The notes below the pieces were generated by a model. The model ran no database searches and had not been told where the DNA came from. It worked only from the letters and a program-made list of their open reading frames with translations. Below, piece after piece: positions 7,682 to 52,093 of a stretch of DNA of 64,000 nucleotides (its first letter is position 1; every line of letters starts with the position of its first letter). Position numbers and translations under genes: made by a program. Origin of the DNA: Olleya marilimosa CAM030 (GTDB lineage: Bacteria > Bacteroidota > Bacteroidia > Flavobacteriales > Flavobacteriaceae). The stretch is from the NCBI RefSeq assembly GCF_000518485.1, contig NZ_JADR01000001.1, positions 62,001-126,000 on the forward strand, in the 5' to 3' direction.

Positions 7682-7728
7682 ATGCTAAAATTAAAGTCTA
7701 TCATGTGTTTAAGACTTTTAAGCAAAAA

Positions 7729-7758: not shown

Positions 7759-7782
7759 AATCTTAAAGATATATGGTAGTTG

Positions 7783-7974
7783 TTAAATTACTTTAACGTT
7801 AACTGCGTTTAATCCTTTTTTACCTTCTTGTAAGTCGAATTCAACTTCGTCACCTTCGCGAACTTCGTCGATTAATCCTGAAATGTGTACAAAATGGTCT
7901 TTGTTTACACCTTCTTCTGTTATGAATCCAAAACCTTTAGCGTCATTGAAGAATTTTACTGTGCCTTTACTCAT
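7783..7974 (-). CDS. Cold shock domain protein (first copy)
   Basis: A 63-residue single OB-fold protein binding single-stranded RNA and DNA, probably an RNA chaperone. RNP-1 (KGFGFI, 13-18) and RNP-2 (HFVHIS, 27-32) are intact. It is closely similar to the next gene, differing mainly at residues 2-3, 12 and 22-25. The untranslated leader carries ATTTTATTACA directly before ATG, as in the second copy. Confidence 0.95.
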   Translation of the reverse strand: MSKGTVKFFNDAKGFGFITEEGVNKDHFVHISGLIDEVREGDEVEFDLQEGKKGLNAVNVKVI

Positions 7975-8084
7975 TGTAATAAAATTTAATATTAATTATT
8001 TTAATTATTGCAAAGATGATACCATTAATTTTAATAAAGCACTTTTATTTTATTTATTTTCAATTATTTAGAAAATTTAACTAA

Positions 8085-8113
8085 AAAAGCCTTTCCGTAT
8101 GGAAAGGCTTTTT
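8085..8113 (-). terminator. Terminator of the second cold shock gene
   Basis: The stem AAAAAGCCTTTCC/GGAAAGGCTTTTT has a GTAT loop and T-runs on both strands. It lies 30 bases beyond the stop and separates the two cold shock genes. Confidence 0.88.
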
Positions 8114-8142
8114 TTGTAAAGATTTAAATAGAAAATATATAA

Positions 8143-8334
8143 TTATACTACTTTTACATTTACTGCGTTCATACCTTTTCTTCCTTCTTGTAAGTCGAAT
8201 TCTACAACATCACCTTCACGAACTTCGTCGATAAGTCCAGAGATGTGTACGAAATGGTCTTTGTCTGATCCTTCTTCAGTAATAAAACCGAATCCTTTAG
8301 AATCATTGAAAAATTTTACTGTGCCTTGAGCCAT
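8143..8334 (-). CDS. Cold shock domain protein (second copy)
   Basis: This is a paralogue of the gene at 7783, also 63 residues, with RNP-1 KGFGFI and RNP-2 HFVHIS. Each copy has its own terminator and probable promoter, so they are separate transcription units rather than an operon, allowing different regulation. Single-stranded nucleic acid binding is expected. Confidence 0.95.
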   Translation of the reverse strand: MAQGTVKFFNDSKGFGFITEEGSDKDHFVHISGLIDEVREGDVVEFDLQEGRKGMNAVNVKVV

Positions 8335-8363
8335 TGTAATAAAAAAATTTGTTAATAATGTCT

Positions 8364-8371
8364 CAAAGATA
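8364..8371 (-). promoter_or_regulatory. Probable -7 element of the second cold shock gene
   Basis: Read on the minus strand this is TATCTTTG, a match to TAnnTTTG, 30 bases before the ATG. The first copy has CATCTTTG at 8011-8018 in the equivalent place. Confidence 0.5.
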
Positions 8372-8443
8372 TAATATTTAATAATATCTAAAAGTTTATT
8401 TTAATTTATTTTGAAAAATTTATTTTGGCAGTATAAAATTTAA

Positions 8444-8740
8444 TTATCTCAATATCAGTTTTTTAATTATTTCTTTACCAAGTTCCTCGTTTAATAAGGT
8501 GATAATTTTTTGGTTACCATAACTAAGCTCTTCTCTTAATGCGCTTGAGCTAAGTTGTACATATAGTATGTCTTTTTTAAGCTCGATTGCTGTAGTGTAA
8601 TTGTTAATTCCGTTACCCATTAATTTTGCCCAAGCGTCCTTAACATTAACTTTATCCAATCCTTTTTCTAGATTGTTTTCTGTAACAAAGTTTTTTAATG
8701 CGTCAGATATGTTTAGTAAGTCGTTATTTCGTTTTGCCAT
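8444..8740 (-). CDS. DUF721 protein (DciA-like)
   Basis: This small 98-residue protein fits DUF721. The DciA branch of that family is the ancestral loader or operator of the replicative helicase DnaB. The pattern DAWAKLMGNGINNYTTAI and the following SSALREELSYGNQKII matches the family. It shares its first base with the last base of the lipoprotein gene upstream, downstream of recF, a neighbourhood often seen for DUF721. The DciA role is inferred from the family only. Confidence 0.8.
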   Translation of the reverse strand: MAKRNNDLLNISDALKNFVTENNLEKGLDKVNVKDAWAKLMGNGINNYTTAIELKKDILYVQLSSSALREELSYGNQKIITLLNEELGKEIIKKLILR

Positions 8741-9153
8741 TAGTCTATTGTTATAGGTGTGTAGCGTTTATATAAATATAAATCTTTATTTTGATTCATT
8801 ATTTGTAATTTGTCTTTGCTTGCATGTAAAACGGTTTCTTTCCAAGTAGCAAAAGGTGTTTTGTAATAAAGATTTAAACTGTCATTTTCTATTTTAAAAA
8901 CAAAATGTTCTACATCTTTAGAGGTTTGGTAAGTCCCATTAAAGTTTGGTTTTAGTTTTTTTCTAAATCCGACAGTGTCTTTGTCTATATTGATATAATC
9001 TATAGTTTCATTTACATTATACACTTTTTTAGTACCATTACTTAAGGTTACTTCATTTATTTCCCAATATCCAGAAAGATGTTGTTTTAAATCTTCAGGA
9101 TTTTTTGAGCATCCAAAAAATACTATTAATAATAAGTAATACGCCTTTTTCAT
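8740..9153 (-). CDS. Small lipoprotein of lipocalin-like type
   Basis: I chose the ATG at 9153 because it gives MKKAYYLLLIVFFGCSK, a lipoprotein signal with the acceptor Cys15. A longer frame would run inside recF. The mature part (about 120 residues) is beta-rich, with GYWEINEVTLSNG and a LYLYKRY end, as in lipocalin-like cell-surface lipoproteins of Bacteroidota. The start lies one base beyond the recF stop and the stop touches the DUF721 start, so the three genes are one operon. The cargo is unknown. Confidence 0.7.
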   Translation of the reverse strand: MKKAYYLLLIVFFGCSKNPEDLKQHLSGYWEINEVTLSNGTKKVYNVNETIDYINIDKDTVGFRKKLKPNFNGTYQTSKDVEHFVFKIENDSLNLYYKTPFATWKETVLHASKDKLQIMNQNKDLYLYKRYTPITID

Positions 9154-9154
9154 G

Positions 9155-10234
9155 TTATAGTTTAAATATTTCATACGATTGATGTACTTGTTTAACTGCA
9201 TTTTCTGTGCGTTCGGCATGAGTATCACTAATAAAAATTTGTCCAAAATTTTCATCATTAACTAATTTAATAATTTGTGCAACACGTGTTTCGTCTAATT
9301 TATCAAAGATATCGTCTAGTAATAAAATTGGATTATCACCACTAATGGCTTTTATACTGTCAAACTGAGCTAGTTTAAGCGCAATTAAAAATGATTTTTG
9401 TTGACCTTGACTTCCAAATTTTTTAATTGGATAATCACCAATATTAAATTCTAAATCATCCTTATGTACTCCAACACTAGTATATTGTAACGCCTTGTCC
9501 TTATTAATTGTTTTTTTTAAAAGTTGCTCCAAACTATCCTCAAACAAGTCACTTTTATAATTTAAACTAACTTCTTCATTATTATTGCTAATGGCTTTAT
9601 ATCTAGCTTTAAATAAAGGAATAAACGATTCTAAAAATTGTTTTCTCTTTTCAAAAATGTGTGTACCATATTGTTGTAGTTGTTGGTTGTAAACATCTAC
9701 AGTGTCATTGTTATAAGTGTGATTAGCAGCAAAATATTTAAGCAATGAGTTGCGTTGAGACAGTATCTTGTTGTAATTAATTAAATTATTTAAGTAGCTT
9801 TTATTGCTTTGACTAATTACACTATCAATAAATTTTCGTCTGGTATCACTTCCTTCAATAATTAAATCTCTATCTGCTGGACTTATTATTACTAAAGGTA
9901 AAAAACCAATGTGATCACTAAACTTGTCGTAAGCTTTACTGTTTCTTTTAATAATTTTTTTTTGTCCTTTTTTTAGACTTACTACAATGTTTTCTGTTTT
10001 TTCATCTTTGTCATATTCACCATTAATTACAAAAAACTCTTCGTCATATTTAATATTCTGTGATGCTACAGGATTAAAGTAGCTTTTACCAAAGGATAAA
10101 TGGTAGATTGCATCCAATACATTGGTTTTTCCAACACCATTATTACCAACAAGACAGTTAATAGTGTGGTTAAACTCGAATGATTTTGAGTCGAAATTTT
10201 TATAGTTTAAAAGCGCTAAAGATTTTAAAATCAT
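9155..10234 (-). CDS. recF: DNA replication and repair protein RecF
   Basis: RecF is an SMC-like ATPase that helps load RecA at single-strand gaps. The 359-residue protein has Walker A GNNGVGKT at 30-37, a signature region around [18 protein letters not shown], and Walker [13 protein letters not shown] near 305. The length is normal. It heads the recF-lipoprotein-DUF721 operon. Confidence 0.96.
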
Positions 10235-35937: not shown

Positions 35938-38340
35938 TTAAGAATTAATAAATATTTTAATGGCTTTCTCCATATTTTGGTATTCTTCAAAATGTTTCAT
36001 AATGTCTTCGTTTTCTTTGCCATCCGTGAGGTAAGCAGCAAAGACTTCGGGCGGTACTTCCAATCGGAAAATGTTGCTTTCCTTTCCGATTTTGATGAAC
36101 ATTTCGGTATATTTTCGTGTTCCTGTAAGGTTGTTACGAATGGATTTTAACTGGTTTAAATCGTGACTGGTAAGGTTGAGCCTGTTTTTTAATTCGGCAT
36201 AGCCTTTTTCATTACGAAGGCTGTAAATTACTTGGGTGTTTTCAAGAATACTCGCCGATGTGGAATTGTTGGGCAATTGGTTAATGGATTGCAGTATAAT
36301 CCCAATCGCTCCATTTTGTTTTCTAATGGCTTGATAATAGAATTCTACACTTTCGAGTACATTTCCAAATTTGAGCTGTTTGGCAAACTCGTCGAATAGG
36401 ATGATTCCCCTCTCGGCTTTATTTCTCCAAATGGTTCTTTGAATGGCAGATTTAATCAGCTTCAACATTACGGAAAGGATTTCCTTATTGTCCTTTACTT
36501 CATCAAGTTCAAAAACAATCAGTCTTTTATCCTCAATTTTATAGGTCTGGTCTTCACTTACATTGAACAGGAAGCTGTACAAGCCATCATCCACATATTC
36601 AGAGAGAATGTGCAGAAAATCGTAGATGTTGAAATGTTGCTCTTGAATATGTAGTTCTTCTAAAAAGGTGTCTTTTTTTGTATCAACGAACTGGTATAAA
36701 TTTTCCAAAGAATGTGTACCACCCACATTTTGTAGATAGTAGTACCGAAGTACTTTTTTGACCGCCACTTCTTCAGCTTTAGTCGTTGCTTTGCCCGAAG
36801 CCAAGAGCTCTAAAAGGAAGATTGCCAAATCTTCCAATCGCTCTGGTGTCAAATCATTGACATCAGAGATATAGAATGGATTGATACCCAAATTTTTTCC
36901 CTGTTCATAGCGAAGGATGATATGGTCGTCTGGATAGAGCTTGGCAAATTTTGAATATGAACCACCTAAATCAATAATGACCAATCGAACATTTTGTTCA
37001 AAATATTGGCGTAGAATATTGTTTGCCAAAAAAGATTTTCCCTCTCCAGTAGGTGCGAAAATGGCAAAGTTCCTTGCCTTGATGCGTTTCTTCTTTTCAT
37101 CCCAGACATCTTTAAGTACAGGAATGTTATGTTGTCTGTCATTAAAGATGACACCTGTGGCATCTGACTGATAGTTGGTATTGTTAATGTACAGGCAAAG
37201 AGCGTGTTTTAAATCGGTTACGTATAAATCCTCATTAGAAAAATTGGAAGTAAAACAGCAATATGAGTTTAAGAAATATTGCTTGCGTTCTTCGCCTTTT
37301 GGATAATAAGGCACTATATCCAATTCTTTGAATTCGGTTTTTATTTTGGAAGCAATTCTTTCTAATTGTGCTTCATCTTTATCCCAGAATATAATATTTA
37401 GATGACCCCTAATAATTCTTGAACTATCGTCCTCATTGATTTTGGTAACAATGTCTTCAATCTTCTTTAAGATGACTTTGTTCTGTGTTCCAAAATTGGA
37501 ACTCTTTTTGAGTTCTTCAATTTTCTTGTCCAACAGCTTTCGCCATTTGTGCTTATCATCCAAATAAATGATTTGGTTGACAATATGATTTTCATTGAGA
37601 TTCAACCCTAATCCGTCAATAAATCCTTGGTGGAATACAAAGTCGTCCGAAGTAAATTTATCATTGGTCTTGCTACTCTGAACCACATCGCCATAACACA
37701 ATTCGCTATTGATGGCCAGCACATCAAAATGATGGTCGCCAATTTCAATATTCGCTTTTTTCAATAGAATGTCGGTATCAAATCCTTCGTTGAATCCATT
37801 AAAATAAGCATTGGTCAATGACAAGACTTTATCGATACCCAAAGGTATCAATGACACTTTCCGGCTGTTATTTACAAAGGAAACGGCATCGTTAACAGAA
37901 GCAATAAATTCCTGAACGTTATGGTCCATTTGCTTATGAATACCCTTTTCGACCTTGCGGAATGGGTTGGTAAACTTCGGTGCGTTCAAAGCTTTGTTGT
38001 GCGGAAGTATAAAGAATAGGTAAGAAGAATGTTTAATGAATTCCCGACCTTTAAAATAATCGTGTGTGGCACGTTGCAAAAAGCTTTTGTTCGGAAGTTC
38101 TTCCGCCAAATATTCAGCTTTCTGATAGATGTCCTGTTTGTGGATAACCGTGGCAATAGGCAATGATTTAAACGCTTGAAACCACGAACCGTGAATATCC
38201 TCAAAATCTTTTTCCGCGAGGGAATAGATTTCAGGATTGTCCACTTGATAGCCCAATACCACATTGCCGTTATTAGCGAACACGATATGGTCTTGAATAT
38301 CCAAAATAGGATGATATGCCGATAGGTTAATTTTCTTCAT
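35938..38340 (-). CDS. traG: Conjugation ATPase TraG (VirB4-like)
   Basis: An 800-residue ATPase powering assembly of the type IV secretion channel. Walker A APTGEGKSFLAN is near residue 416, Walker B GIILFDEFAKQ near 645, and QSINQLP follows. The N-terminal half matches VirB4/TraG proteins (HPILDIQDHIVFANNGNVVLGY). Only this VirB4-type ATPase is present; it is not the VirD4-like coupling protein. The start overlaps the traF end by 14 bases. Confidence 0.95.
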   Translation of the reverse strand: MKKINLSAYHPILDIQDHIVFANNGNVVLGYQVDNPEIYSLAEKDFEDIHGSWFQAFKSLPIATVIHKQDIYQKAEYLAEELPNKSFLQRATHDYFKGREFIKHSSYLFFILPHNKALNAPKFTNPFRKVEKGIHKQMDHNVQEFIASVNDAVSFVNNSRKVSLIPLGIDKVLSLTNAYFNGFNEGFDTDILLKKANIEIGDHHFDVLAINSELCYGDVVQSSKTNDKFTSDDFVFHQGFIDGLGLNLNENHIVNQIIYLDDKHKWRKLLDKKIEELKKSSNFGTQNKVILKKIEDIVTKINEDDSSRIIRGHLNIIFWDKDEAQLERIASKIKTEFKELDIVPYYPKGEERKQYFLNSYCCFTSNFSNEDLYVTDLKHALCLYINNTNYQSDATGVIFNDRQHNIPVLKDVWDEKKKRIKARNFAIFAPTGEGKSFLANNILRQYFEQNVRLVIIDLGGSYSKFAKLYPDDHIILRYEQGKNLGINPFYISDVNDLTPERLEDLAIFLLELLASGKATTKAEEVAVKKVLRYYYLQNVGGTHSLENLYQFVDTKKDTFLEELHIQEQHFNIYDFLHILSEYVDDGLYSFLFNVSEDQTYKIEDKRLIVFELDEVKDNKEILSVMLKLIKSAIQRTIWRNKAERGIILFDEFAKQLKFGNVLESVEFYYQAIRKQNGAIGIILQSINQLPNNSTSASILENTQVIYSLRNEKGYAELKNRLNLTSHDLNQLKSIRNNLTGTRKYTEMFIKIGKESNIFRLEVPPEVFAAYLTDGKENEDIMKHFEEYQNMEKAIKIFINS

Positions 38341-38611
38341 AGTACAGACGACTTCCTTTTTTGTTACTAATTGTTTGTGGGAATACCTTTTTGATGTGCA
38401 TCAATGCAGGGTTTTTGGTAATGTGAGTCAATACGATATACAGTGCACCGTTCAATAGAAATACTGAAATGATAACAGTAAAGCTGAACGAAAAGATGAT
38501 GAACAGCAATGAACCGATAACAACGGTCATCATTAAAGCGAACAATGATATGGGCAGACCCATAATCACGGCTCGCTTGCGTATGTTTTTATAGACCTCG
38601 AATCGTTTCAT
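38327..38611 (-). CDS. traF: Conjugative transposon protein TraF (DUF4133)
   Basis: A 94-residue protein with two membrane segments and the DUF4133 pattern of a basic start (FEVYKNIRKRAVIMGLPISLF) and a short basic tail. It is VirB3-like and lies between traE and traG in the standard order. Confidence 0.9.
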   Translation of the reverse strand: MKRFEVYKNIRKRAVIMGLPISLFALMMTVVIGSLLFIIFSFSFTVIISVFLLNGALYIVLTHITKNPALMHIKKVFPQTISNKKGSRLYYEEN

Positions 38612-38898
38612 TACACTACGATGCTAATGAGGTACGTAAAGATGCCCACGACTGCTCCCGCAATCAATACAAAGACCAGTACGCGGGTAATCCCTTTTTT
38701 TAAATCGGCATTTTCGCCAAAGAAATGTCCAGCATTAAATAGGAATCCAATTAAAAAGATAACGCCCAAAATAATGGGGAAAATGGTTCGGATAGTATCA
38801 GAAACATCGTTTACGGAATCTTCGATACCTCCAATTTGTGCAAAAGTTGTACTTGAAATAAGTAATGATAAGATGGTTACATAATGTGATTTTTTCAT
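38611..38898 (-). CDS. traE: Conjugative transposon protein TraE (DUF4134)
   Basis: A 95-residue pilin-like protein comparable to VirB2, with a signal peptide (VTILSLLISSTTFAQ) and two membrane helices. I take the ATG at 38898 rather than an in-frame TTG two codons earlier. It is the first gene of the tra operon in this window; the usual upstream genes traA-traD are absent. Confidence 0.9.
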   Translation of the reverse strand: MKKSHYVTILSLLISSTTFAQIGGIEDSVNDVSDTIRTIFPIILGVIFLIGFLFNAGHFFGENADLKKGITRVLVFVLIAGAVVGIFTYLISIVV

Positions 38899-38966
38899 AA
38901 TCAAAGTGATTTAGATTTTACGTCAATTTTGATATTTGAAAAATAGTGTATATTGCAATACAAAGA

Positions 38967-38979
38967 ACTGATAATCAGT
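38967..38979. promoter_or_regulatory. Palindrome upstream of traE
   Basis: ACTGAT A ATCAGT is a perfect 6-bp dyad in the space between the divergent traE and amidase genes, about 70 bases before traE. It is a candidate operator for the tra operon, with no known protein assigned. Confidence 0.35.
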
Positions 38980-39064
38980 AAATTGTGAATAAAATAAGTT
39001 TTGATGTCAATTGTTTTTATTTGATGCGAATTGGTATCAAATTTTATGAAAATTGAAAAGTGCG

Positions 39065-39730
39065 ATGTTGATAACTCTAAAATTTTGGAAGTGGGTAACG
39101 CCCAAAAACGTCAGTTTTGTGATTTTGATGCTACAATTCTGTGTGATTTTCGGTCAACAAAAAGTCATTATCATCGACCCTGGACACGGTGGAAAAGATA
39201 CTGGTGCAATCGGTACAAATAGTATTCAAGAAAAGGATGTATCGTTAAGTATTGCCAAAGAGATTATAAGGCTAAATGAAACCCTCTTAAATAACGAGTT
39301 TGATATGTATTCGACCAGATATATGGACACTTTAATTTCTTTATCCGATAGAAGTCGATTAGCTGAAAGCTTAAAGGCTGATGTGTTTGTATCGTTACAT
39401 TGCAATGCCTCTAACACATCGGCAAAAGGAATGGACATTTACGTGCATAATACCAACGATGAAGAAGTACTTATAAAGAAATCTATCGGAATGGGATTGT
39501 CCATTTTGGAAGAAAGCACTCTGAAATTGGACTTTAAAAAACGAGCAGTTCGATTCGCAAATTTTCAAGTGCTACGTGAAAATATCGAAATTCGCCCTGC
39601 TATACTCATCGAAATGGGCTTTATTTCGAGCACCGATGAAGCAGATTATTTTTTAAAGCCCAAAAATATAAGAGCAATGGCATTGGCCATTTTAATGGGA
39701 TTGTATAACTATTTAAATGTTGGGTTATGA
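39065..39730 (+). CDS. N-acetylmuramoyl-L-alanine amidase
   Basis: A zinc amidase (Amidase_3 fold) cleaving the sugar-peptide bond of peptidoglycan. I choose ATG 39065 (221 residues), which gives a signal peptide (VSFVILMLQFCVIFGQ). The family motifs IDPGHGGKDTGA, SLHCNAS and EMGFIS, with His and Glu metal ligands, are present. Divergent from traE in a conjugation element, it may open the cell wall for the transfer channel; this role is inferred. Confidence 0.9.
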   Translation: MLITLKFWKWVTPKNVSFVILMLQFCVIFGQQKVIIIDPGHGGKDTGAIGTNSIQEKDVSLSIAKEIIRLNETLLNNEFDMYSTRYMDTLISLSDRSRLAESLKADVFVSLHCNASNTSAKGMDIYVHNTNDEEVLIKKSIGMGLSILEESTLKLDFKKRAVRFANFQVLRENIEIRPAILIEMGFISSTDEADYFLKPKNIRAMALAILMGLYNYLNVGL

Positions 39731-39822
39731 AGGAAATATTTATGGAAATTGTAAAAAGCATTAGAAAGATTATTATAACTATCTTCAAAGAGATAATTAA
39801 AACTAAAAATCCTCAATCCTAA
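39727..39822 (+). CDS. Possible 31-residue peptide overlapping the amidase stop
   Basis: ATG at 39727 overlaps the amidase TGA (ATGA). The 31-residue peptide is Ile/Lys-rich and would form an amphipathic helix (MEIVKSIRKIIITIFKEIIK). It overlaps the convergent nuclease gene's end by 20 bases. It could be a real coupled small membrane-active peptide or a chance frame. No homologue is known to me. Confidence 0.3.
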   Translation: MKEIFMEIVKSIRKIIITIFKEIIKTKNPQS

Positions 39823-41512
39823 ATTTTAGTTTTTTGTCAAAATATAACTTGTCAAAATAATTTTGTAGGGTTGGGTCAGTAAAAACAACATATTCACTTT
39901 CACATATTTCTTTGAAGTTCTTTGGGTCTTTTAGGAACATAGCACATACATCCAATTCATCATTGGTTATTAATCTTCCGTGTAGTAATTCTCTATGCTC
40001 CAAAAAGTTAAAAATCTTTCTGGATGGATTACTGAAACTATTGTAAAGCACTTTCAAAAAAGTTTCTAAATCATCGACATATATTGACCAAGGGTAAGGG
40101 TCTTCATTATTTTTCCTTTTAAGCATTAATCCTAAATCGGTTTGTATGGAAGCAAATCTTTCTGAAGTAACTACAATGCAAAAAATCTCGTGAATTTCAT
40201 TCGTGATAATTACCTCCGATTTATTTTTCAAGCTAACAATAACCTTTTCATTGTTTAACAATTCCTGTTCAACCTGATAGCATTGGTCATAACCTTTTTG
40301 AATACAGTCGTTAAAGTCAGATTTAATTCTTTGGTATGCTTGTTCCGTAACCCTTCGTGGTTCTCTATATCTTGAAGCCTTACATTCAATGATATAGGCG
40401 TTATTATCCACAAGGATTAATATATCTTTTTCTTCTGGCTCGTTGTTTATGTAATAGTTGGTGAAAATTTTAATCCTTTTTGATTTTTTGAAGAATTTTT
40501 TAAATATATCCAAAGTATGGCTTTCCAAAACAACTTTTCCTCTACGGAAATTTACTTGTTCTTTTTCCTTTTTTGTTTGAGTAAGCGTGGTATAAAGTAA
40601 ATCATATAGAGCTGAAGGCAATTGTTTTTGATATACGTTTAAATACTGATTATCACTAATTCTTATAATCGGTTTATTTTCTAAAGGATTTTGTTGGGAA
40701 TAAAATAAATTACTATGATTATCTTTAATATCAATTGAAAATAAGCCACAGAAAATATCAATATGTTTTTCTTCAAAAGAGAGGTGAAAATCTTGTTTGG
40801 CAAAAAGTAAACATTGGTGGGGTTTCTCAAAAAAATTCAAAAAACTTTCTTGGGTCTCATTCGAAAGTTCTAACAGCTTATCTGTAAACTCATTCTCTGC
40901 TAATAATCCATTTGCAGATTGTCGAGCCAGTTTGTCAAAGCCTTTGTCTAAAATAAATGACTTTGAATTTATTGACTTTGCACGATAAATTAATTCAGAA
41001 TGATTGCATAAATTAATTAAGGTTTTTAAATCGATTTCTAATCTTTCCTGTATTTTATCTTGATAAGGTTTAAACATCCTAATAACCTTATTTACCTCTT
41101 GTTCTCTATAATTTAATATTCCGTTTTGAAAGTAATTTTTGAATGCTAATTCGTGAACAAGTAATTTTTGTCTTTTATCAGAAATCTCATCAAATTCATT
41201 TCCCTCATAATTTTCTGATAAATAGAAACTAACTATCTCTAAAAGAATGTCAGCAACTTGCTGAAGTACTAAATCATTTTTTTCTGAATAATGAAGTTCT
41301 TCCTTGCCTGCCAATGGTGTAGAGAGTCTTAACATTATCAGATATAAAGAATCTTTTAATTTTGACTTGAATTTTTTTGAAAATCCAATATTGCTTCTTT
41401 CTGGATGGTGTCTAATAAAATCAGCAAAAAAACATACAAAGCTCTCTTTTGTATAACGAGAGATTATTTTTTGAATTTCTAATGATTTTTTCTCTAAATC
41501 TATTTTCTTCAT
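39803..41512 (-). CDS. PD-(D/E)xK nuclease-like protein downstream of the Gabija pair
   Basis: A 569-residue protein with no domain I can name over the first 320 residues (mostly helical). The segment 361-380 reads as a PD-(D/E)xK core: Asp363 in EKDILILVD followed by Glu376-x-Lys378 in IIECKAS, with a further Glu330 on the preceding helix. This suggests a restriction-type metal-dependent nuclease. It is the third gene of a minus-strand run after gajA and gajB, 60 bases beyond the helicase stop. The nuclease call rests on motif and spacing alone. Confidence 0.6.
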   Translation of the reverse strand: MKKIDLEKKSLEIQKIISRYTKESFVCFFADFIRHHPERSNIGFSKKFKSKLKDSLYLIMLRLSTPLAGKEELHYSEKNDLVLQQVADILLEIVSFYLSENYEGNEFDEISDKRQKLLVHELAFKNYFQNGILNYREQEVNKVIRMFKPYQDKIQERLEIDLKTLINLCNHSELIYRAKSINSKSFILDKGFDKLARQSANGLLAENEFTDKLLELSNETQESFLNFFEKPHQCLLFAKQDFHLSFEEKHIDIFCGLFSIDIKDNHSNLFYSQQNPLENKPIIRISDNQYLNVYQKQLPSALYDLLYTTLTQTKKEKEQVNFRRGKVVLESHTLDIFKKFFKKSKRIKIFTNYYINNEPEEKDILILVDNNAYIIECKASRYREPRRVTEQAYQRIKSDFNDCIQKGYDQCYQVEQELLNNEKVIVSLKNKSEVIITNEIHEIFCIVVTSERFASIQTDLGLMLKRKNNEDPYPWSIYVDDLETFLKVLYNSFSNPSRKIFNFLEHRELLHGRLITNDELDVCAMFLKDPKNFKEICESEYVVFTDPTLQNYFDKLYFDKKLKFRIEDF

Positions 41513-41572
41513 TTTATCCTAAAAACACTATCCTTAATTTTTCAAATCGTTACAAATGGATTACAACATTTT

Positions 41573-43348
41573 TTATATTTCATCAAATTCAAAATTAAGA
41601 TTTTGCAATTCTGGGGTAATCTCTAACGGGTTTCCTTTTTTGGTTTGTCTGCCAGTTTCTGATATCAAGTGTAAATTGGTTTTGGCTCTTGAACAGATAA
41701 CATAAAGTAGTTTTTTTGAAGCGGCAACAGGGTCTCCAGTAAAAATGTCATTCCAATGTGGGATATACCCATTTAGCAAACCATAAGCAATAACGGTTTC
41801 AAATTCTTCTCCTTTAACACCAACGCAAGTATTGATGACGACGCCTGACATTTCTCTATAAAAACTCATAAATGATGCTATGTCACTTGGAACTTGAAAC
41901 GTTGGGTCTTCAAGACGGCTCTTTATTACATCGAAAAAGGTCTTCCTATTTATAAGAAGTTGTGCGTAAATAGTTTGGTCAATCCCAACAGCCTCTAAAA
42001 ACTGGTCAAAACAATCATTAAGATAATCGATACCTTCAGTTTCATTGGATGTTATCGAGTTAATCAATTTCAATACATTTCGCTCTGTTTGATATTGTTC
42101 GCTGAATTCAGTATTGGTATGTTCTTTAAAGTTTTCAATTACTTCAGAACACCATTTGTATCGCAATGAATATATTTTTGGTTGTGGCTGCGTTAAGAAC
42201 AACCTCGATAACTTATACCAAATGTTATTTCGATTTTTTGACATTGGTGCTAAACCTGAAGCATCAAAATTTACATCTGGTAGTTTAGCTCTCAACTGTT
42301 TTGTGATAGTAGTTATTAACCACCATTGCGGAACCAATACGCATATTTCATCTTCTGGAATTCCATTATCTAAACTATGCTCTATAAGTCGTCCAATTTC
42401 ATCTACTAAATATCCTTTGTCAATGGTGTTATTGTACGTTATTATACTATCAACGTCTTTATTAGTACCAATAGCTTCAATTTTAATTGGGTTTGTCTGG
42501 AATATAGAGTAAAAGTCGATAATTCTTTGTGTGGACCTATAATTTCCAGAAAGCGTAAGTTGCTCAATAGGTAAAGTGTTTAACTCTTCCTGTATTTCTT
42601 CCAAACTTTTGGCAATGCCACCCAAAGATGCATAAATTGCTTGGTCTGTATCTCCTACTAAAAATAGATTTGAGCTACCTTCCCCAGTTGTTACAATCGA
42701 CGAAATAATTGCGTAAAGCAAATCTTGCGTGTCTTGATATTCATCAACACATATAAGGCTAAAAATGTTCGATAACGTTTTTTTTATTTTAGGATGCTTG
42801 GTTAAGAGTTTGTATGAATAGTATAGTAGAAGCTCAAAATCAATTAACTTCTCTGTTTGTAGCCTTTCGTGATAATCCTTAAGGACTCTTTTTTGAATTG
42901 TTTTTGGTTCGGCAAATGTGCCGTCCCTATTGAATCTGAAATTAATCGGGTCAATAGGTTTTAACTTATGCTTTTCTTTAAGTTCACTTATGATATCCGA
43001 GGCATAAGTTTCATCGGCAATTAAATAGCCGTTTTCAAGTTCAGGTAAATAACAGGAATAGGGTTTTATAATCCATTCGAGACAAAATGAATGCAAAGTG
43101 CCAGACCAAACCCGATTACTATTAATTCCCATTGCGTTTAATCTGCGATATATTTCTTCGGAAGCCCTTACGGTAAAAGTTAGAGCGACAATCCTTTGTT
43201 TACTGTTTACATCAATATTTTTTAGAGCATAAGCGAGTTTATGAATAATCACTCGTGTTTTTCCACTTCCTGGGCAAGCTGTAAGAAGTACATTTCCATC
43301 TTTAACAACGGCATCTTTTTGTTGGTCGCTTAAAGTATCTAAAATCAT
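41573..43348 (-). CDS. UvrD-like helicase, GajB of a Gabija-type system
   Basis: A superfamily 1 helicase of 591 residues. Motif I is CPGSGKT (25-31), motif II VDEYQDTQ (201-208), motif III GDTDQAIYASLGG (232-244), motif IV NYRS (269-272), and a late GVKGEEFETV supports UvrD-type ATPase activity. In Gabija the helicase partner GajB works with GajA in anti-phage defence. The ATG overlaps the gajA stop by 4 bases. It is longer than the founding GajB (about 490 residues). Confidence 0.85.
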   Translation of the reverse strand: MILDTLSDQQKDAVVKDGNVLLTACPGSGKTRVIIHKLAYALKNIDVNSKQRIVALTFTVRASEEIYRRLNAMGINSNRVWSGTLHSFCLEWIIKPYSCYLPELENGYLIADETYASDIISELKEKHKLKPIDPINFRFNRDGTFAEPKTIQKRVLKDYHERLQTEKLIDFELLLYYSYKLLTKHPKIKKTLSNIFSLICVDEYQDTQDLLYAIISSIVTTGEGSSNLFLVGDTDQAIYASLGGIAKSLEEIQEELNTLPIEQLTLSGNYRSTQRIIDFYSIFQTNPIKIEAIGTNKDVDSIITYNNTIDKGYLVDEIGRLIEHSLDNGIPEDEICVLVPQWWLITTITKQLRAKLPDVNFDASGLAPMSKNRNNIWYKLSRLFLTQPQPKIYSLRYKWCSEVIENFKEHTNTEFSEQYQTERNVLKLINSITSNETEGIDYLNDCFDQFLEAVGIDQTIYAQLLINRKTFFDVIKSRLEDPTFQVPSDIASFMSFYREMSGVVINTCVGVKGEEFETVIAYGLLNGYIPHWNDIFTGDPVAASKKLLYVICSRAKTNLHLISETGRQTKKGNPLEITPELQNLNFEFDEI

Positions 43349-45459
43349 ATAAACGATAAAAATTTAGTAAATTGGTCATTAGGAAAGTTGGCTATATAGT
43401 CATCAATAACCTGTTGGTCTTCTTTATCCTTAAAACTAATTTTTGTTGCTACATCGTAATAACTATCATTTTTACTACGACTAATTTTTCGTAACCTGTA
43501 TTTAGCGGTTTTAGCTTTAGAGGCATTATTTAAATGCGAAGATGCAAAAGCAACGGCTTTCAAAATATATTCAGGAATATAAGTATTGTAAACTAAATTA
43601 TCTGCAACAACCAACGCCAGCCAACCTTTGCCTTTTTTATCAGCCAATCGTAAAACTTCTACACCTGCAATCGAAACTGATTTTTCTTCTAACTTTTTCT
43701 TTGAAGAATCAATAGCTGCTTGTTGTTTGAAAATTTCAGGAAGTGATTGTACGTATTCGTGGCTATTCCCATTCAAAAGGAAATCAACTTCAAAGGTGTA
43801 TTTAGAGTAAAAAGGAATCAAGAAGTCGTTTTTGTCACAAAATTTATCCAATTCCTTTTTTCTTTCAGCTCCACTAATTTGCGATGCCCTACAATGTTTT
43901 TCATAAGCAGAATCATCAACTTCATTTGCAGGTAAATTGACAATACTGGCATCCAAGTCAGTTAGTATGGCACAGTTTTTCTGAATTCTATCCTTATGGA
44001 AAAGCCTTGCAACATTTTTAAAACCTGTACTTCCAATGTTTACGAGACTTATCCCAATTTCATCGAGCGAAATTCCAAAGACTTTTTTAAACATTTGAGG
44101 AATGAGAATCTGTTCTGCATCGCCTTCAACCAAAACAACGCCTTTCGCGAAAAGCAAGTTGCTTCTTATGGCGTCCAAGTACCTTTCGGCTCTTGTTATA
44201 TAATCATCATCAAGATTGTTAGATGGTTGATATACCAAAGTCTGCATATTTCCTCGGCTTAAAATATTTACTGAACTTATTCGGCTTACAGATGAAATGT
44301 GAGTAGAATGCGTTGAAATAATAACCTGTGTTTTATTGGTTTGCACATTATCAAAAAGGGTTTTTTGAATATGCGTATGAATATGTGCTTCTGGTTCTTC
44401 TATTAAAAGAAAATTTGCAATTCTATCCGTTCTGATTTTTTCATACTCCAATAGCTTTAGTGATAGGTAAATCATATTTGCACCTCCCAAACTCAACTCC
44501 CATATTTTACCCATATAACCTTCTTCATCTGGGTCGCCAACCCATAGTTTGAGTGATTGCAGTAGTTTTTCCATATCATTTGGAAGTTCTGATTTGACAT
44601 CTATATTAGGGCCGTAAGTAGTACCCACAGCTTCCTTAATACTTTTGTCAATTCCATCTTTCACATCCTTTACTTCTTTGAGAGAACTAATTTGGTCGTT
44701 AAGTTTGTTAACGCTATCAATGATGTCCGTTTGTTTTGAAACTTCAATAGTTTTTTCCTTTCCTCGTAATAAATTAATCAATGGATTAGTAGAATAGGAA
44801 CGTAAGTCGCTTTCGACATCTCGAAGTGCTTTAATGAACGTACAAGAAACCTCGTTGTGCACACTTATTTCCCTCGGCAGAAACGTTCCAAAAATCAATT
44901 CTTCTTTATCATCTGGGTTTGGGAATTCAACAGCATCAAAATCGCCAACATACTTTTTATAGGTAGTGTCATCACTAAAATCTCCAGAGCCTCTGCATAA
45001 GTAAGACGTTTCATAATCATCAATCGTAAGTTTATCAAAAAAAAGCTGAAGCCCTGCTACACTTTTACCTGCGGTTTGTGAATAATCATATAATTCTTTT
45101 CTAAACTGATATTTTGGTCTAAAGTACACCGAGTAACTTCCAGTCTTTTTGCTGCCTTCCATATCTCCCGAAGATTGTACTGCCAGTACCTGTGCTTCTT
45201 CACTCGCATCCAGTTCGTCAAAAGTAACCGATAAAATTATCCAATGTCCAGCCCATTTACCCAGACCTCGGTTAAAGTCAGACTCATTAAATCTTATATA
45301 TCTTGGAAGTTTATCATCAATTAAAACTCGTAAAGCAAAAAAGAGATTGGTTTTACCTGAACCGTTTTCTCCTAAAATAGTATTTATACCTTTTTTAAAA
45401 ATGAATTTTGATTTATAGAAATTTCTAAAATTCCTAATGGATAGTGAACTTATATGCAT
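43345..45459 (-). CDS. OLD-family ATPase/TOPRIM endonuclease, GajA of a Gabija-type system
   Basis: I choose ATG 45459 (704 residues), which starts the SMC-like MHISSLSIRNFRNF; an upstream extension adds an unlikely leader. Walker A is GENGSGKT (30-37), the ABC signature LSLGG (322-326), Walker B LLIEEPEAH (351-359) and the H-loop STHS (382-385). The TOPRIM domain has VLVEGDAE (Glu445) and LTDLDAS (Asp501, Asp503). OLD/GajA proteins cut DNA when nucleotide levels fall during phage attack. The gene opens the defence operon and is longer than typical GajA (about 580). Confidence 0.88.
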   Translation of the reverse strand: MHISSLSIRNFRNFYKSKFIFKKGINTILGENGSGKTNLFFALRVLIDDKLPRYIRFNESDFNRGLGKWAGHWIILSVTFDELDASEEAQVLAVQSSGDMEGSKKTGSYSVYFRPKYQFRKELYDYSQTAGKSVAGLQLFFDKLTIDDYETSYLCRGSGDFSDDTTYKKYVGDFDAVEFPNPDDKEELIFGTFLPREISVHNEVSCTFIKALRDVESDLRSYSTNPLINLLRGKEKTIEVSKQTDIIDSVNKLNDQISSLKEVKDVKDGIDKSIKEAVGTTYGPNIDVKSELPNDMEKLLQSLKLWVGDPDEEGYMGKIWELSLGGANMIYLSLKLLEYEKIRTDRIANFLLIEEPEAHIHTHIQKTLFDNVQTNKTQVIISTHSTHISSVSRISSVNILSRGNMQTLVYQPSNNLDDDYITRAERYLDAIRSNLLFAKGVVLVEGDAEQILIPQMFKKVFGISLDEIGISLVNIGSTGFKNVARLFHKDRIQKNCAILTDLDASIVNLPANEVDDSAYEKHCRASQISGAERKKELDKFCDKNDFLIPFYSKYTFEVDFLLNGNSHEYVQSLPEIFKQQAAIDSSKKKLEEKSVSIAGVEVLRLADKKGKGWLALVVADNLVYNTYIPEYILKAVAFASSHLNNASKAKTAKYRLRKISRSKNDSYYDVATKISFKDKEDQQVIDDYIANFPNDQFTKFLSFI

Positions 45460-45694
45460 AATAATTATTTTGAAACAATAAAAAAGCCAATGATTTCCCA
45501 TTAGCTTTTTAAACATTAATATTTTAAGCGTAATCGCCTATAAATATACTGAAATGTCTTTTTAAATTCTTACGGTTTCCTACAAATTGTTAAAATTTTA
45601 TTAAGAATATATCTTTACTTCTGGAAGTCAAAATTTTGGTTTTTTTTCGTAAATTAAGCCTAATTAGAGTGTTATAAACTCTAGTGCAAATAAA

Positions 45695-46120
45695 ATGAGA
45701 GCAATTGCAATTTTCTTTTTGAACGTACTTCAAAATACTTTGGGGATGACTTTTGGATGGTTGTTTAAACCAAAAACCAAACGAAATTCATTTAAGGCCT
45801 TATCTGATGTTGAAATGGTAAAATATCTTGAAAAAAGAAGGCAATACAAAGGCTATAAAAAACAATGGCTGTATTACAGGTGTAGAGAAGAAGGTTTATT
45901 AGAAACCTATTACAAATTGTTCGATACTGAAGTTGAGGGACAAGATTCTGGAACGAAATTTAGTTTCGGTAAATATAGAGGGGAATATGTTGAAGCTATT
46001 TGGGAATCTGATAAAGAGTATATCAATTGGCTTTCCCAACAAGAATGGTTGGCTCAATATTTGGATGAAAGCGATATGATACACGAACTACTTCTTTTAG
46101 AGGAAGAAAACCAAAATTAG
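45695..46120 (+). CDS. Hypothetical protein with an exodeoxyribonuclease X C-terminal-like segment
   Basis: A 141-residue protein with a hydrophobic N-terminus (MRAIAIFFLNVLQNTLGMTFGWLF, cut here), a basic helical middle and a C-terminal segment FSFGKYRGEYVEAIWESDKE followed by YINWLSQQEWL. That segment resembles the putative quorum-sensing/ExoX C-terminal motif FGKYKG..W. The exonuclease core itself is absent. It is divergent from gajA across 235 bases and convergent with the DnaC-like gene. Function unknown. Confidence 0.55.
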   Translation: MRAIAIFFLNVLQNTLGMTFGWLFKPKTKRNSFKALSDVEMVKYLEKRRQYKGYKKQWLYYRCREEGLLETYYKLFDTEVEGQDSGTKFSFGKYRGEYVEAIWESDKEYINWLSQQEWLAQYLDESDMIHELLLLEEENQN

Positions 46121-46122
46121 AT

Positions 46123-46785
46123 TTAATCCCTTTTATCACGACTGCTTTTATCAAAGGCAATTAAATTGAACAGTTGTCGCATCCTTGAACGTACCCTATT
46201 CCCATAACGTTCCTCCAGTTCTTTAGCATTGAGGTTTGTAGTTGCGTGTGTTTTAGTTTTATGACTTAAAAATAAATCATAACGTGAAAGTAAGATTTCG
46301 CCCATTACATTACAATCTTTTCCAAAATGCCTTCCGGTGGGTTCTACACCCAAATCATCAAAACAATAAAACTTTTTGTCGCCGTAATTTTCAATGATGG
46401 TGTACCCAATATTATTAAAGGCAAAGGCAATGTTTCGTGTGGGTATAACCTCATACGATTTCTGATGTGGCACAATATGGCGTAACAGTTTCATTAAACT
46501 GGTTTTTCCACAACCAACAGGACCAGAAAGCAAAATCCCTTTATCGCGGTCGATGTCTAATTTTTTGCAATTAGCTTCATCCCTGATAAAATAATTACAG
46601 AGCTTGAATATAATATCACGGTCTTCTTCAAAAATTTTGAATTTCTTGCCAAAAAGTAGTTTTCCTTTGGCATTGAGATAAATTAGCATTTTATCAAAAT
46701 CATAAAGCATTTGATTGTCTTTCAGTTCTCCCAAGGTGTATTGAACGCTACCCTCGGTAATGATATGTGGTTTGTGGGGATTCAT
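46123..46785 (-). CDS. DnaC/IstB-like ATP-binding protein
   Basis: A 220-residue P-loop ATPase with Walker A SGPVGCGKT at 87-95, Walker B FYCFDDLG near 140, and a late arginine-rich RYGNRVRSRMRQLFNL typical of helicase loaders. It probably loads a replicative helicase during replication of the excised element. Its start overlaps the upstream gene by 4 bases, which makes the two a functional pair. Confidence 0.8.
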   Translation of the reverse strand: MNPHKPHIITEGSVQYTLGELKDNQMLYDFDKMLIYLNAKGKLLFGKKFKIFEEDRDIIFKLCNYFIRDEANCKKLDIDRDKGILLSGPVGCGKTSLMKLLRHIVPHQKSYEVIPTRNIAFAFNNIGYTIIENYGDKKFYCFDDLGVEPTGRHFGKDCNVMGEILLSRYDLFLSHKTKTHATTNLNAKELEERYGNRVRSRMRQLFNLIAFDKSSRDKRD

Positions 46786-47468
46786 AATGGTTCATTATAA
46801 TTTTTGTTGGAACTTGTCTTTAGGTTGTCCGTATTTTGGCTAACTGCAACCATTGTTTTTTCTTCTTTTAGCTCTTCGGCCTTTATCATCCAGTTTCGAG
46901 CTGTGGCGTGCCAATCGACAATTTTTGTTTTTCCACCTACTTTCCAACCGATGCCTTGGTAGTGGTTGTAAAATTTTTTGGCTTCCAATTCTGGCCAATT
47001 TTCCTTTTCAAAAAAATCAATGACTTCATTTTCATTTTTTGGCTTGTCAAGTTTAGTATCATTTGCTTTGTTTTTTCCTGTTTGTATATGTTTGTTTATA
47101 GATACCACCGCTTGTCCATTGCTTGTCCCGATATTGGTAGGGTTTGGGTACAGAGCTTGTCCATCACTTGTCCCAAAATTGAACATCTTGATTCTGCTGC
47201 CTTTAAATGGATTATGTGAGGGTTCGTATAATAGGTATTTCCAATGATGTAGTTCTTTGATGCAGCGATGGTAGGTAGTTTTTGAACCAATCTTGGAAAA
47301 CCGCATCGCTTCTTCTCGATTGATATAGAATTCTGTCGGAAAGTGATAGTTGTTCCATAATTGAAACAATGCCACGTACAAACTTATGTGCGTGGGATTT
47401 AAACGGCTATCCTTTGAGAATTGTAAGAATACAGCGTTTAGGTGCTTAATGTAATTGACCTGCTCCAA
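46782..47468 (-). CDS. Replication-initiation-like protein, non-ATG start
   Basis: A 228-residue protein whose first 100 residues look like a winged-helix DNA-binding domain (RLNPTHISLYVALFQLW, EEAMRFSKIGSKTTYHRCI) and whose C-terminus (VIDFFEKENWPELEAKKFY, DWHATARNWMIKAEEL) resembles DnaD/primosome-type tails. The only usable start is TTG at 47468 (or the adjacent GTT/ATC), six bases after the helix-turn-helix gene stop in the same frame. With the DnaC-like gene it forms a replication module. Confidence 0.65.
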   Translation of the reverse strand: MEQVNYIKHLNAVFLQFSKDSRLNPTHISLYVALFQLWNNYHFPTEFYINREEAMRFSKIGSKTTYHRCIKELHHWKYLLYEPSHNPFKGSRIKMFNFGTSDGQALYPNPTNIGTSNGQAVVSINKHIQTGKNKANDTKLDKPKNENEVIDFFEKENWPELEAKKFYNHYQGIGWKVGGKTKIVDWHATARNWMIKAEELKEEKTMVAVSQNTDNLKTSSNKNYNEPL

Positions 47469-49387: not shown

Positions 49388-51346
49388 CTATTTCCAATTC
49401 ATCTTCTGTAATCGAACCGCATTCAGAATGGCTAACAAGGCCACGCCTACATCGGCAAAAACTGCTTCCCACATCGTTGCCAGACCACCTGCGCCCAAAA
49501 CCAAAACCACTGCTTTTACACCAAAGGCCAACCCAATATTCTGCCAAACGATGCGTCTTGTAGAACGTCCTATTTTTATGGCTCTAGCTATTTTACTTGG
49601 TTGGTCTGTTTGGATAATGACATCTGCGGTCTCAATGGCGACATCGCTACCTAAACCACCCATTGCAATACCTACATCACTTACTGCCAAAACTGGCGCA
49701 TCGTTTATGCCATCGCCAATGAACGCAACTTTGTTATCGTTTTCGGACATTAGTTTTTCGACTTCCTTCAATTTATCTTCTGGAAGCAAACCGCCTTTTG
49801 CCCAATCTACACCCATTTCTTTGGCAACTTGTTGCGTAATTGAATCCTTATCGCCCGAAAGCATTATGATTTTTGAAATACCAGATTCCCGAATTTGTTT
49901 AATGGCATCGTGTGCATCATCCTTTAACTCGTCTGCAATGATTACATAGCCTGCAAATTTGCTTTCAATGGAAACCATCACAATGGATTCTACAATGTTG
50001 TCGGTTTCAGATGGAACTTCGATATTATTTGAAATCATCAATGGTTTATTCCCAACTAAAACAGTTTTGCCATTGACCATTCCCTTTAATCCTTTTCCTG
50101 CGACTTCGGTTACTTCTGTTGCCTGAAAATCTTCGCCATCGGCTTTATATTCCATAATTGCCTTGGCAATGGGATGAGTGGATTGTTCTTCCATCGCCAT
50201 TAGGTATTTCATCATTTCGGCTTCGCTCAATGACCCATTGTTTACAACGACATTTTTGATTTTAAAAACCCCTTTGGTCACGGTTCCGGTTTTGTCCATT
50301 ACAACCGTAGTTACCTTTGTCATTTCGTCCAAAAAGGAAGCTCCCTTAAAGAGAATTCCATTTTTTGAAGCTGCTCCCAATCCACCGAAATAACCCAACG
50401 GAATAGAGATAACCAATGCACAAGGACAGGAAATAACCAAGAAAATCAAGGCTCTATACAACCAATCGCTAAAGACATAATCGTCCACAAAAAAGTAGGG
50501 TATAAACGTCAATCCAATCGCAAGAAAGACAACGATTGGTGTATAGATTCTTGCGAACTTTCTAATGAACAATTCGGTTTTTGATTTCCGTGCGGTGGCG
50601 TTTTGCACCATATCAAGAATTCTTGCAATGGAACTATCCTTAAATTCTTTGGTCGTTTCAATTTCAATAACGCCATCCAGATTGATGCTTCCTGCAAATA
50701 CTTTTTCTCCTTTTGCAATGGTGTCAGGTTTGCTTTCGCCCGTTAATGCTGCGGTATTGAACGAGCCTTTTTCGGACAATAAAATACCATCCAAAGGGAT
50801 TTTTTCGCCCACACGGACTTGCACTTTTTCGCCAATAGCAACGGTTTCGGGATTTACAGAAACATAATTGTTGTTCCTATAGACCAAGGCTTCATTAGGT
50901 CTTACATCCAGTAATGCCTTGATGCTTCTCTTGGCTCTTTTAACGGCGGCACTTTGGAACAATTCGCCTACGGCATAAAAAAGCATTACCGCAACGCCTT
51001 CAGGATATTCGCCAATGGCAAAAGCTCCTAAGGTTGCAATGGACATCAAAAAAAATTCGGTAAAGAAATCCCCCTGTTTAATACTTTCCCAACCCTCTTT
51101 TATTACAGGAAATCCAACTGGGATATACGCAACCACGTACCAGAGGATGCGGATCCAGCCCGAAAATTGGAGAAATGTTTCAAAATAGTCAAAAAGGATG
51201 CCTGCTATCAGCATTACAAAACTGAATATGGAAGGTATATATTCCCTAATGCTCAGCTGTGATGAAACTTTGTTATTCATAGAATTTTCCTTTTTGCCGC
51301 TATCATCGACCTTGAGATCCCTTAAGTTTAATTTTTTCTTTTTCAT
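49388..51346 (-). CDS. P1B-2-type heavy metal ATPase (Zn/Cd/Pb export, CadA/ZntA-like)
   Basis: A 652-residue metal-pumping ATPase. The sixth-helix motif CPC is at 307-309, followed by SIP; the phosphorylation site DKTGT is at 351-355; HP is in STHPIAKA; and the last helices carry an Asp-x-Gly (DVGVAL). CPC with DxG marks the P1B-2 group, which exports Zn2+, Cd2+ and Pb2+. No N-terminal heavy-metal-binding domain is present, only a short charged head. It lies after the second lspA and before the two tiny membrane protein genes. Confidence 0.92.
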   Translation of the reverse strand: MKKKKLNLRDLKVDDSGKKENSMNNKVSSQLSIREYIPSIFSFVMLIAGILFDYFETFLQFSGWIRILWYVVAYIPVGFPVIKEGWESIKQGDFFTEFFLMSIATLGAFAIGEYPEGVAVMLFYAVGELFQSAAVKRAKRSIKALLDVRPNEALVYRNNNYVSVNPETVAIGEKVQVRVGEKIPLDGILLSEKGSFNTAALTGESKPDTIAKGEKVFAGSINLDGVIEIETTKEFKDSSIARILDMVQNATARKSKTELFIRKFARIYTPIVVFLAIGLTFIPYFFVDDYVFSDWLYRALIFLVISCPCALVISIPLGYFGGLGAASKNGILFKGASFLDEMTKVTTVVMDKTGTVTKGVFKIKNVVVNNGSLSEAEMMKYLMAMEEQSTHPIAKAIMEYKADGEDFQATEVTEVAGKGLKGMVNGKTVLVGNKPLMISNNIEVPSETDNIVESIVMVSIESKFAGYVIIADELKDDAHDAIKQIRESGISKIIMLSGDKDSITQQVAKEMGVDWAKGGLLPEDKLKEVEKLMSENDNKVAFIGDGINDAPVLAVSDVGIAMGGLGSDVAIETADVIIQTDQPSKIARAIKIGRSTRRIVWQNIGLAFGVKAVVLVLGAGGLATMWEAVFADVGVALLAILNAVRLQKMNWK

Positions 51347-51409: not shown

Positions 51410-52093
51410 TTATTGATCGTTGTTTAAAACTGTTCCGTTACCTTCAATATATTTCGACTTTTTCTTATTCGATATTTTTAGGTCTTTACGCCGTTTATTT
51501 TGAAAAATCAGGAGTGAAATCACGCCCGTACTGATCCAAACATCCGCAGTATTGAATACCGGGTCAAAAAACGTAAATTTGTTACCTCCCCATTGCGGTA
51601 ACCAATCCGGAAGCCTTGTATCTATAATCGGAAAGAACCACATATCCACTACATTGCCATTTAAAAATCCAGAATAACCACCGCCTGACGGGAATATTTT
51701 TGCAATGTTCTGAAGCGCTGGATCGCTTTTTTCAAAAATAATCCCGTAGAAAGCTCCATCAATCAAATTGCCCAGCGCACCTGCGTATATAAATGCTGCA
51801 CAGATTATAAAAATCTTGGCATATCCCTTGCTAATCATCTTTTTGATATAAAAAGTTCCCCAAACAATGGCGGCTAATCGGAATAAGATTAAAACAACCT
51901 TGGCTAGATATCCTTCACCAAACTTTAATCCCCAGGCCATCCCGGGGTTTTCCAAGAAATGTAAGCGAAACCAATTCTGGCCAAATACATAGTATTCCTC
52001 TCCATAATAGAAATGGGTCTTCACATATATCTTTATTGCCTGGTCTATAGCCAACAACAGTAAAATCAATAAGATTGTATTTCTTTTCTTCAT
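51410..52093 (-). CDS. lspA: Lipoprotein signal peptidase II, element-borne copy
   Basis: A 227-residue membrane aspartic protease that removes signal peptides of lipoproteins. The catalytic aspartates are in GNVVDMWFFPII and FNTADVWISTG. It has four membrane segments and a longer basic tail than most (KRRKDLKISNKKKSK). The host should have its own lspA, so this is an accessory copy. Such copies often travel with CDF and P-type ATPase genes in metal resistance regions. Confidence 0.93.
   Translation of the reverse strand: MKKRNTILLILLLLAIDQAIKIYVKTHFYYGEEYYVFGQNWFRLHFLENPGMAWGLKFGEGYLAKVVLILFRLAAIVWGTFYIKKMISKGYAKIFIICAAFIYAGALGNLIDGAFYGIIFEKSDPALQNIAKIFPSGGGYSGFLNGNVVDMWFFPIIDTRLPDWLPQWGGNKFTFFDPVFNTADVWISTGVISLLIFQNKRRKDLKISNKKKSKYIEGNGTVLNNDQ

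Follow-up and report, generated by a model that had tools for sequence, protein, structure and literature searches.

Two probably separate defence modules, a two-gene Gabija system and a predicted nuclease gene, in the cargo slot of a flavobacterial conjugative element

A 64,000-nucleotide stretch of the genome of Olleya marilimosa CAM030 (assembly GCF_000518485.1, contig NZ_JADR01000001.1, positions 62,001 to 126,000; hereafter "the window", in whose numbering positions are given) carries three genes on the minus strand that are read in the order gajA, gajB and a third gene, which encodes a protein of 569 residues. A preliminary description, made from the sequence, took the first two as a Gabija defence pair and proposed that the third gene, if it belonged with them, would make an expanded Gabija variant. 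Our analysis leads us to consider it likely that the locus instead holds two separate defence modules, a two-gene Gabija and an autonomous single-gene nuclease, arranged head to tail in the cargo slot of a flavobacterial conjugative element. The basis of this reading is sequence, the predicted fold of the third protein, its conserved catalytic set and the modular exchange seen among related loci.

The genomic company that the third gene keeps is varied. Forty loci with this gene were obtained when one genome from each species was searched with a profile built from four rows; because the search relied on two short peptide patterns, it favours close relatives. In seven of the 40 loci (L023-L027, L033, and L034), gajAB lies directly upstream of the third gene; all three proteins are identical to those of the window in L023 and L024. 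The Gabija genes concerned represent three subfamilies, i.e., PDLC00072/00127 (assigned by PADLOC on the window proteins), PDLC00079/00135 (L027), and PDLC00086/00104 (L034). Elsewhere, the upstream operon encodes type I Wadjet JetABCD, with gaps of -8 to 10 (L037-L039; PADLOC on L037), IetA and IetS (L029, L031, and L032; PADLOC on L031), a MukB-like cluster (L028; Pfam MukB at 20.2 bits, below the cut-off of 23), or an OLD-like ATPase (L035). Upstream of the gene there are type I restriction enzymes in L052 and L058, a DUF4365 protein in L045 and, three genes away, a type IIG restriction gene in L044; in L030 and L057 the third gene is near BREX genes but not in one operon with them, and some of the remaining copies stand alone. 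PADLOC was applied to 30 selected proteins around these loci, and thus to part of the upstream neighbours; among these, the neighbours in L046, L047, L049, L051, and L054 had no match. The proposal that the third gene is a part of Gabija therefore did not hold up, as the gene is mostly found apart from gajAB, which the preliminary description itself had named as a refuting outcome, as it sits behind Wadjet, IetAS and other genes, and as one locus described below has gajAB and no third gene.

Position within operons was tabulated for 38 loci (L061 and L062, which lie at contig ends, were omitted; open reading frames [ORFs] were called mechanically and redundant loci were counted). A co-directional gene was present within 100 bases upstream of the third gene in 23 of these loci and downstream in 8, suggesting that the third gene tends to end an operon. 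The 32 loci in a tree of the third protein are all labelled Bacteroidota, and the tree divides into a clade of 17 rows that includes the window and another clade of 16 rows; in the latter, 4 rows have a known or likely defence partner (L044, by operon, L045, L052, and L058), with neighbours scanned in part.

Comparison of the slot itself, by blastn against positions 38001-47000 of the window, indicated where the modules begin and end. Several loci share a backbone that includes the amidase, VirB2/VirB3-like, TraG, and small ATPase genes. In L027, homology covers 41513-39800, starting at the start of the third gene, and then continues into the backbone; a different Gabija lies upstream, whose GajA and GajB belong to another subfamily and have 28% and 26% identity to those of the window over part of their length. 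In L031, homology covers 41502-39896, beginning within approximately 10 bases of the third-gene start, with IetAS upstream. The converse arrangement is found in L076, a related element, where homology covers 45494-41571 over gajA and gajB and stops with the end of gajB; the 1016 bases that follow showed no sign of the third gene. Homology spans all three genes in L025 and L026. In L033 the third gene is split into two frames while gajA and gajB are intact (proteins 100% and 99.8% identical to those of the window, respectively), and in L029 and L032 ietS is split while the third gene is intact. Together, the homology limits in L027, L031, and L076 and the breaks in L033, L029, and L032 indicate that either module can be retained, lost or replaced independently of the other.

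Genomes and plasmids sampled irrespective of the third gene were also searched; the sampled genomes overlap in part with the named loci (e.g., G707 is L025 and G091 is L039). GajA was found at E up to 1e-40 in 4 of 397 genomes of the window's family (taken as Flavobacteriaceae), three of which carry the third gene, and in 2 of 10 genomes of the genus sample, both with the third gene; G000 is counted in both samples. The third-gene profile matched 8 of the 397 family genomes, and in three of these the gene adjoins gajAB; among the other family copies, the upstream side of L081 is off the contig and L075/L084 is a broken fragment. In the phylum sample, 9 of 395 genomes had the third gene, with gajAB directly upstream in the window's own genome only, by a test of similarity to the window's GajA and GajB that may overlook distant forms of Gabija; inspection of the other eight contexts showed, in one (L107), a single weak helicase match approximately 5 kb away. 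Among plasmids, 108 records had a GajA relative and two had a third-gene relative, neither of the latter with gajAB in the stretches retrieved around it; a third-gene match (E up to 1e-3) was missing from at least 106 of the 108 GajA-bearing records, and the third gene was present in none of 13 plasmid Gabija neighbourhoods inspected. In four of the 13, the gene tables, which are incomplete, show another gene on the same strand no more than 100 bases downstream of gajB; one of these genes has a Shedu domain. On a Priestia megaterium plasmid, a gene with a Shedu SduA domain (L086, 8923-9798) lies 6 bases past gajB of a long-form Gabija, and on a Citrobacter plasmid a Shedu gene (L087, 3486-4895) lies directly upstream of gajA.

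With regard to the third protein, the second nuclease signature recognized in the preliminary description, D363 followed by E376-x-K378, was found at these positions. In a 33-row alignment that consists of the window protein and proteins from 32 of the 40 loci (copies in L023, L024, L033, L050, L056, L059, L060, and L062 were left out as identical, broken, partial or edge copies), E330, D363, K378, and Q410 are conserved in all 33 rows and E376 in 32, the sole exception being L035, which has A. Given this conservation, a chance motif at D363 and E-x-K was rejected. An AlphaFold2 model (mean pLDDT 88.6, pTM 0.86) has a core composed of a helix (314-340), three strands (347-355, 362-368, and 371-378), a helix (389-420), and three further strands (423-428, 431-436, and 442-449). 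PD-(D/E)xK nucleases have a core in the order alpha-beta-beta-beta-alpha-beta, in which the second strand carries D and the third E-x-K. As judged from predicted secondary structure rather than side-chain coordinates, D363 is on strand 362-368 and E376 and K378 are at the end of strand 371-378, so that the core of the third protein, as modelled, is a PD-(D/E)xK-type fold in which D363 and E-x-K lie on the strands that should carry them; the fold check proposed in the preliminary description thus came out in its favour.

Sequence profiles place the protein near NERD. The window protein scored 21.9 bits against Pfam NERD (PF08378), just below the curated cut-off of 22.1, and at an E-value limit of 1, 31 of the 33 relatives matched NERD (the strongest at 1.9e-6), one of 22 Pfam families matched by these relatives at that threshold. 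The Pfam scan of the third protein showed no helicase, kinase or PLD domain, a difference from NERD proteins. No PADLOC family fitted (best E 0.09), and no Gabija model matched. Against solved structures, the third protein had no match at E 0.001 or better; the best, PDB 9wuf (E 1.5e-3, probability 1.00, TM-score 0.30 on the query, 579 alignment columns), is Upx, which we take to be a PD-(D/E)xK defence protein, but Upx has 1212 residues as compared to 569 and had no sequence match. The next matches, to Hjc, VRR-NUC, Cdn1, and MGME1 (E 1.7-4.4), are interspersed with unrelated folds and hence are regarded as suggestive; a search of PDB sequences with the family profile returned nothing at E up to 10. 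A CARF/Card1-like nuclease was considered and rejected, the matches being weak and local (window protein E 0.09 in PADLOC and 0.15 in Pfam; best among relatives 0.001). Third-protein homologues were found neither in IMG/VR, by a pattern scan that reaches close relatives only, nor in phage records by tblastn, and a structure search of viral models returned nothing at E up to 0.001.

More distant relatives of the third protein were also seen. Those encoded at L018 8409-10766 and L021 9301-10932 have Q in place of the E of E-x-K and a cysteine-rich C-terminal end that, in our judgement, resembles a SEC-C motif. Outside Bacteroidota, a plasmid of Exiguobacterium acetylicum encodes a relative with 29% identity (L014, 10486-12282), which adjoins an IS3 transposase and is without gajAB in the 24 kb retrieved.

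As to the other module, gajA and gajB are, by sequence, a genuine two-gene Gabija pair, with an OLD ATPase plus TOPRIM protein and an adjacent UvrD-like helicase. GajA matched PADLOC profile PDLC00072 with 954 bits over residues 1-702 of 704, and GajB matched PDLC00127 with 754.5 bits over residues 2-590 of 591, both far beyond chance. GajA has a Walker A motif from residue 30, LSLGG at 322, LLIEEPE at 351, VEGDAE at 444, and DLD at 501, and GajB has GSGKT at 27 and DEYQD at 202. The ORF map also bore out the 4-base overlap between gajA and gajB and the co-directional gene 60 bases after gajB that had been described previously. Both proteins had further been called longer than the founding members of Gabija. 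While they are longer than the best-matching solved chains (575-598 aa, with one of 675, for GajA and 493-499 aa for GajB), their length is not new, as the PADLOC profiles, at 709 and 594, are equally long. The window locus differs from Gabija of this type by the extra, unrelated nuclease gene after gajB. No viral homologue of GajA was found in IMG/VR by a pattern scan.

Under the reading with two modules, the first would be a long-form Gabija in which the GajA ATPase-TOPRIM nuclease and the GajB helicase act on invader DNA as in other Gabija systems. The third protein would most plausibly be a latent DNA nuclease; its helical N-terminal region of approximately 310 residues probably senses a feature of the invader or keeps the enzyme inactive, and its C-terminal NERD-like PD-(D/E)xK domain probably cuts or nicks DNA after triggering. 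Target, trigger and regulation are deduced here, as is a function against phages or plasmids. The third gene would be added behind, and may be co-transcribed with, whichever defence operon fills the slot. No match to a Bacteroidetes-type promoter pattern was seen in the 60 bases upstream of the third gene; this result is uninformative, since across the window the pattern is no more common (6 found) than expected from shuffled sequences (7.4).

Several observations weigh against independence of the modules. The frame breaks in the third gene of L033 and in ietS of L029 and L032 could be sequencing errors. In L026, identity to the window proteins is 91% for GajA, 91% for GajB and 85% for the third protein, above the 59-82% for flanking backbone proteins, so the three genes moved jointly there. 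Of five family genomes found through GajA of this clade, four also have the third gene (G000, G398, G598, and G707, but not G654), although three of these four hold approximately 99% identical copies of one element. The likeness of the third protein to solved nucleases is weak, and 13 of the 17 rows in the window's clade follow a known or likely defence operon, which a shared effector would predict as well. One alternative is that in this Gabija clade the third protein acts as a working subunit or as an effector that the system cannot do without. In its favour are the shared strand and the 60-base gap, joint movement at 85-92% protein identity between more divergent backbones (L025 and L026), the presence of the gene behind three different Gabija subfamilies, and the Shedu-domain gene 6 bases past gajB on the Priestia plasmid. 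We nevertheless judge it quite improbable, as most third-gene loci follow Wadjet, IetAS or restriction genes or stand alone, as gajAB is intact without the third gene (L076) and next to a broken copy (L033), and as none of the plasmid Gabija loci inspected has the gene.

A different alternative is that the nuclease is a portable effector that works with several otherwise unrelated defence systems whose DNA sensors are OLD or SMC-type ABC ATPases, each sensor activating the nuclease encoded downstream of it. Ten of the 13 defence-partnered rows in the 17-row clade do have an OLD or SMC/MukB-type ATPase (three Gabija subfamilies, Wadjet, the MukB-like cluster, and the OLD-like ATPase), and gaps to the upstream operon are short (-8 to 80 bases). 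The other three of the 13, however, are IetAS, in which IetA is an AAA ATPase; 4 of the 17 rows have no operon partner; and two of the ten depend on weak calls (MukB in L028, below the cut-off, and the lone OLD-like ATPase in L035). As this grouping was made post hoc with no background rate, and as such ATPases are common in defence systems, we regard a portable effector as unlikely. It is also conceivable, but in our estimation very unlikely, that the nuclease serves the conjugative element (e.g., against rival plasmids or in processing of its own DNA) rather than phage defence. Eight of the 40 loci occupy the same slot of related elements (L023-L027, L029, L031, and L032), and L037-L039 adjoin ORFs that by eye resemble mobilisation genes; by contrast, other relatives lie among ORFs without transfer genes by eye (e.g., L041, L042, L053, and L055), and some are near BREX or restriction genes. 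We thus favour two separate modules, with a nuclease family that lacks a convincing PADLOC match, has a conserved catalytic set and repeatedly closes defence operons of different kinds. The case cautions against assuming that a gene in this position is an additional part of the system beside it, and the natural swaps in one slot (one nuclease beside changing partners; related Gabija pairs that have or lack it) provide ready pairs for testing whether modules that move jointly also act jointly.

Among known systems, Shedu was considered as a family for the third protein and rejected, since no Shedu family (the Pfam entry for which we take to be DUF4263) was among the Pfam matches of the 33 relatives at E up to 1 and no Shedu model was among the PADLOC matches. 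The third protein does share with Shedu (SduA) the general plan of a variable N-terminal region plus a PD-(D/E)xK nuclease, as set out in part in PMC12839542. According to PMC10952713, Mokosh type I and Nhi-like systems include NERD domains, and PMC12839542 lists one for PglW of type 2 BREX. A preprint (PMC12407980) proposes that Gabija of PA14 acts on linear DNA that is not acted on by RecBCD, the mode of action adopted here for Gabija, and cites Shedu as an end-sensing nickase, which for the third protein is an analogy only. In Pseudomonas, PMC12629846 describes islands with defence hotspots of modular make-up. Among the open-access literature matches listed, none described this arrangement of Gabija with a third gene, and none dealt with the nuclease family. 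The present analysis contributes this family, the conservation of its catalytic residues and the finding that it follows defence operons of several kinds.

Table 1. Features of the locus and its transfer-side neighbours, in window coordinates.
Feature	Positions	Strand	Assignment and basis
gajA, 704 aa	43345-45459	-	OLD-type ABC ATPase plus TOPRIM nuclease; PADLOC PDLC00072, Pfam AAA_15 and OLD-like_TOPRIM, motifs
gajB, 591 aa	41573-43348	-	UvrD-like helicase; PADLOC PDLC00127, Pfam UvrD-helicase, GSGKT and DEYQD
Gap between gajB and third gene, 60 bases	41513-41572	-	Module boundary, from DNA homology limits in L027, L031 and L076
Third gene, 569 aa	39803-41512	-	Helical N-terminal half plus NERD-like PD-(D/E)xK nuclease (predicted); probably a separate module
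Third protein, residues 1-313	40574-41512	-	Mostly helical (predicted secondary structure); proposed sensor
Third protein, residues 314-449	40166-40573	-	PD-(D/E)xK core, from predicted model and conserved residues
D363 codon	40424-40426	-	Motif position and alignment
E376-C377-K378 codons (E-x-K motif)	40379-40387	-	Motif position and alignment
N-acetylmuramoyl-L-alanine amidase	39053-39730	+	Pfam Amidase_3, 136.9 bits; converging neighbour, transfer side of cargo slot
TraG-type conjugation ATPase, element backbone	35938-38340	-	Pfam P-loop_TraG (PF19044), 209 bits

The coordinates of the locus are given in Table 1; an alternative upstream ATG at 45516 would extend GajA to 723 aa. The three genes had been placed in a conjugative element between transfer and replication genes. 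A conjugative element is a fair description, and the cargo position is supported, but the replication genes found no Pfam support here. The transfer-side flank has the TraG-type ATPase, the amidase, and VirB3- and VirB2-like matches that are below Pfam cut-offs, and the opposite flank has an ORF with an ExoX-like C-terminal domain, a small P-loop ATPase (weak matches only), and an HTH_17 protein. Positions 29806-51157 of the window have approximately 99% DNA identity to L023 (Arenibacter sp. ARW7G5Y1) and L024 (Gelidibacter mesophilus DSM 14095), which points to recent transfer between genera.

In L028, positions 3634-9973 hold a co-directional cluster that encodes a 1072-aa MukB-like protein and proteins of 216, 316, 101, and 378 aa, followed by the third-gene relative; when four proteins of this cluster were scanned against PADLOC, the sole match was a weak one of the 216-aa protein to HEC-02B. 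In the window, the ORF with the ExoX-like C-terminal domain (141 aa, 45695-46120, plus strand) is flanked by gajA and the small ATPase gene and runs opposite to gajA. Further along, a 652-aa ORF at 49388-51346 (minus strand) resembles, by eye, a gene for a heavy-metal P-type ATPase, and its neighbour at 51410-52093 looks by eye like a signal-peptidase II-like gene.

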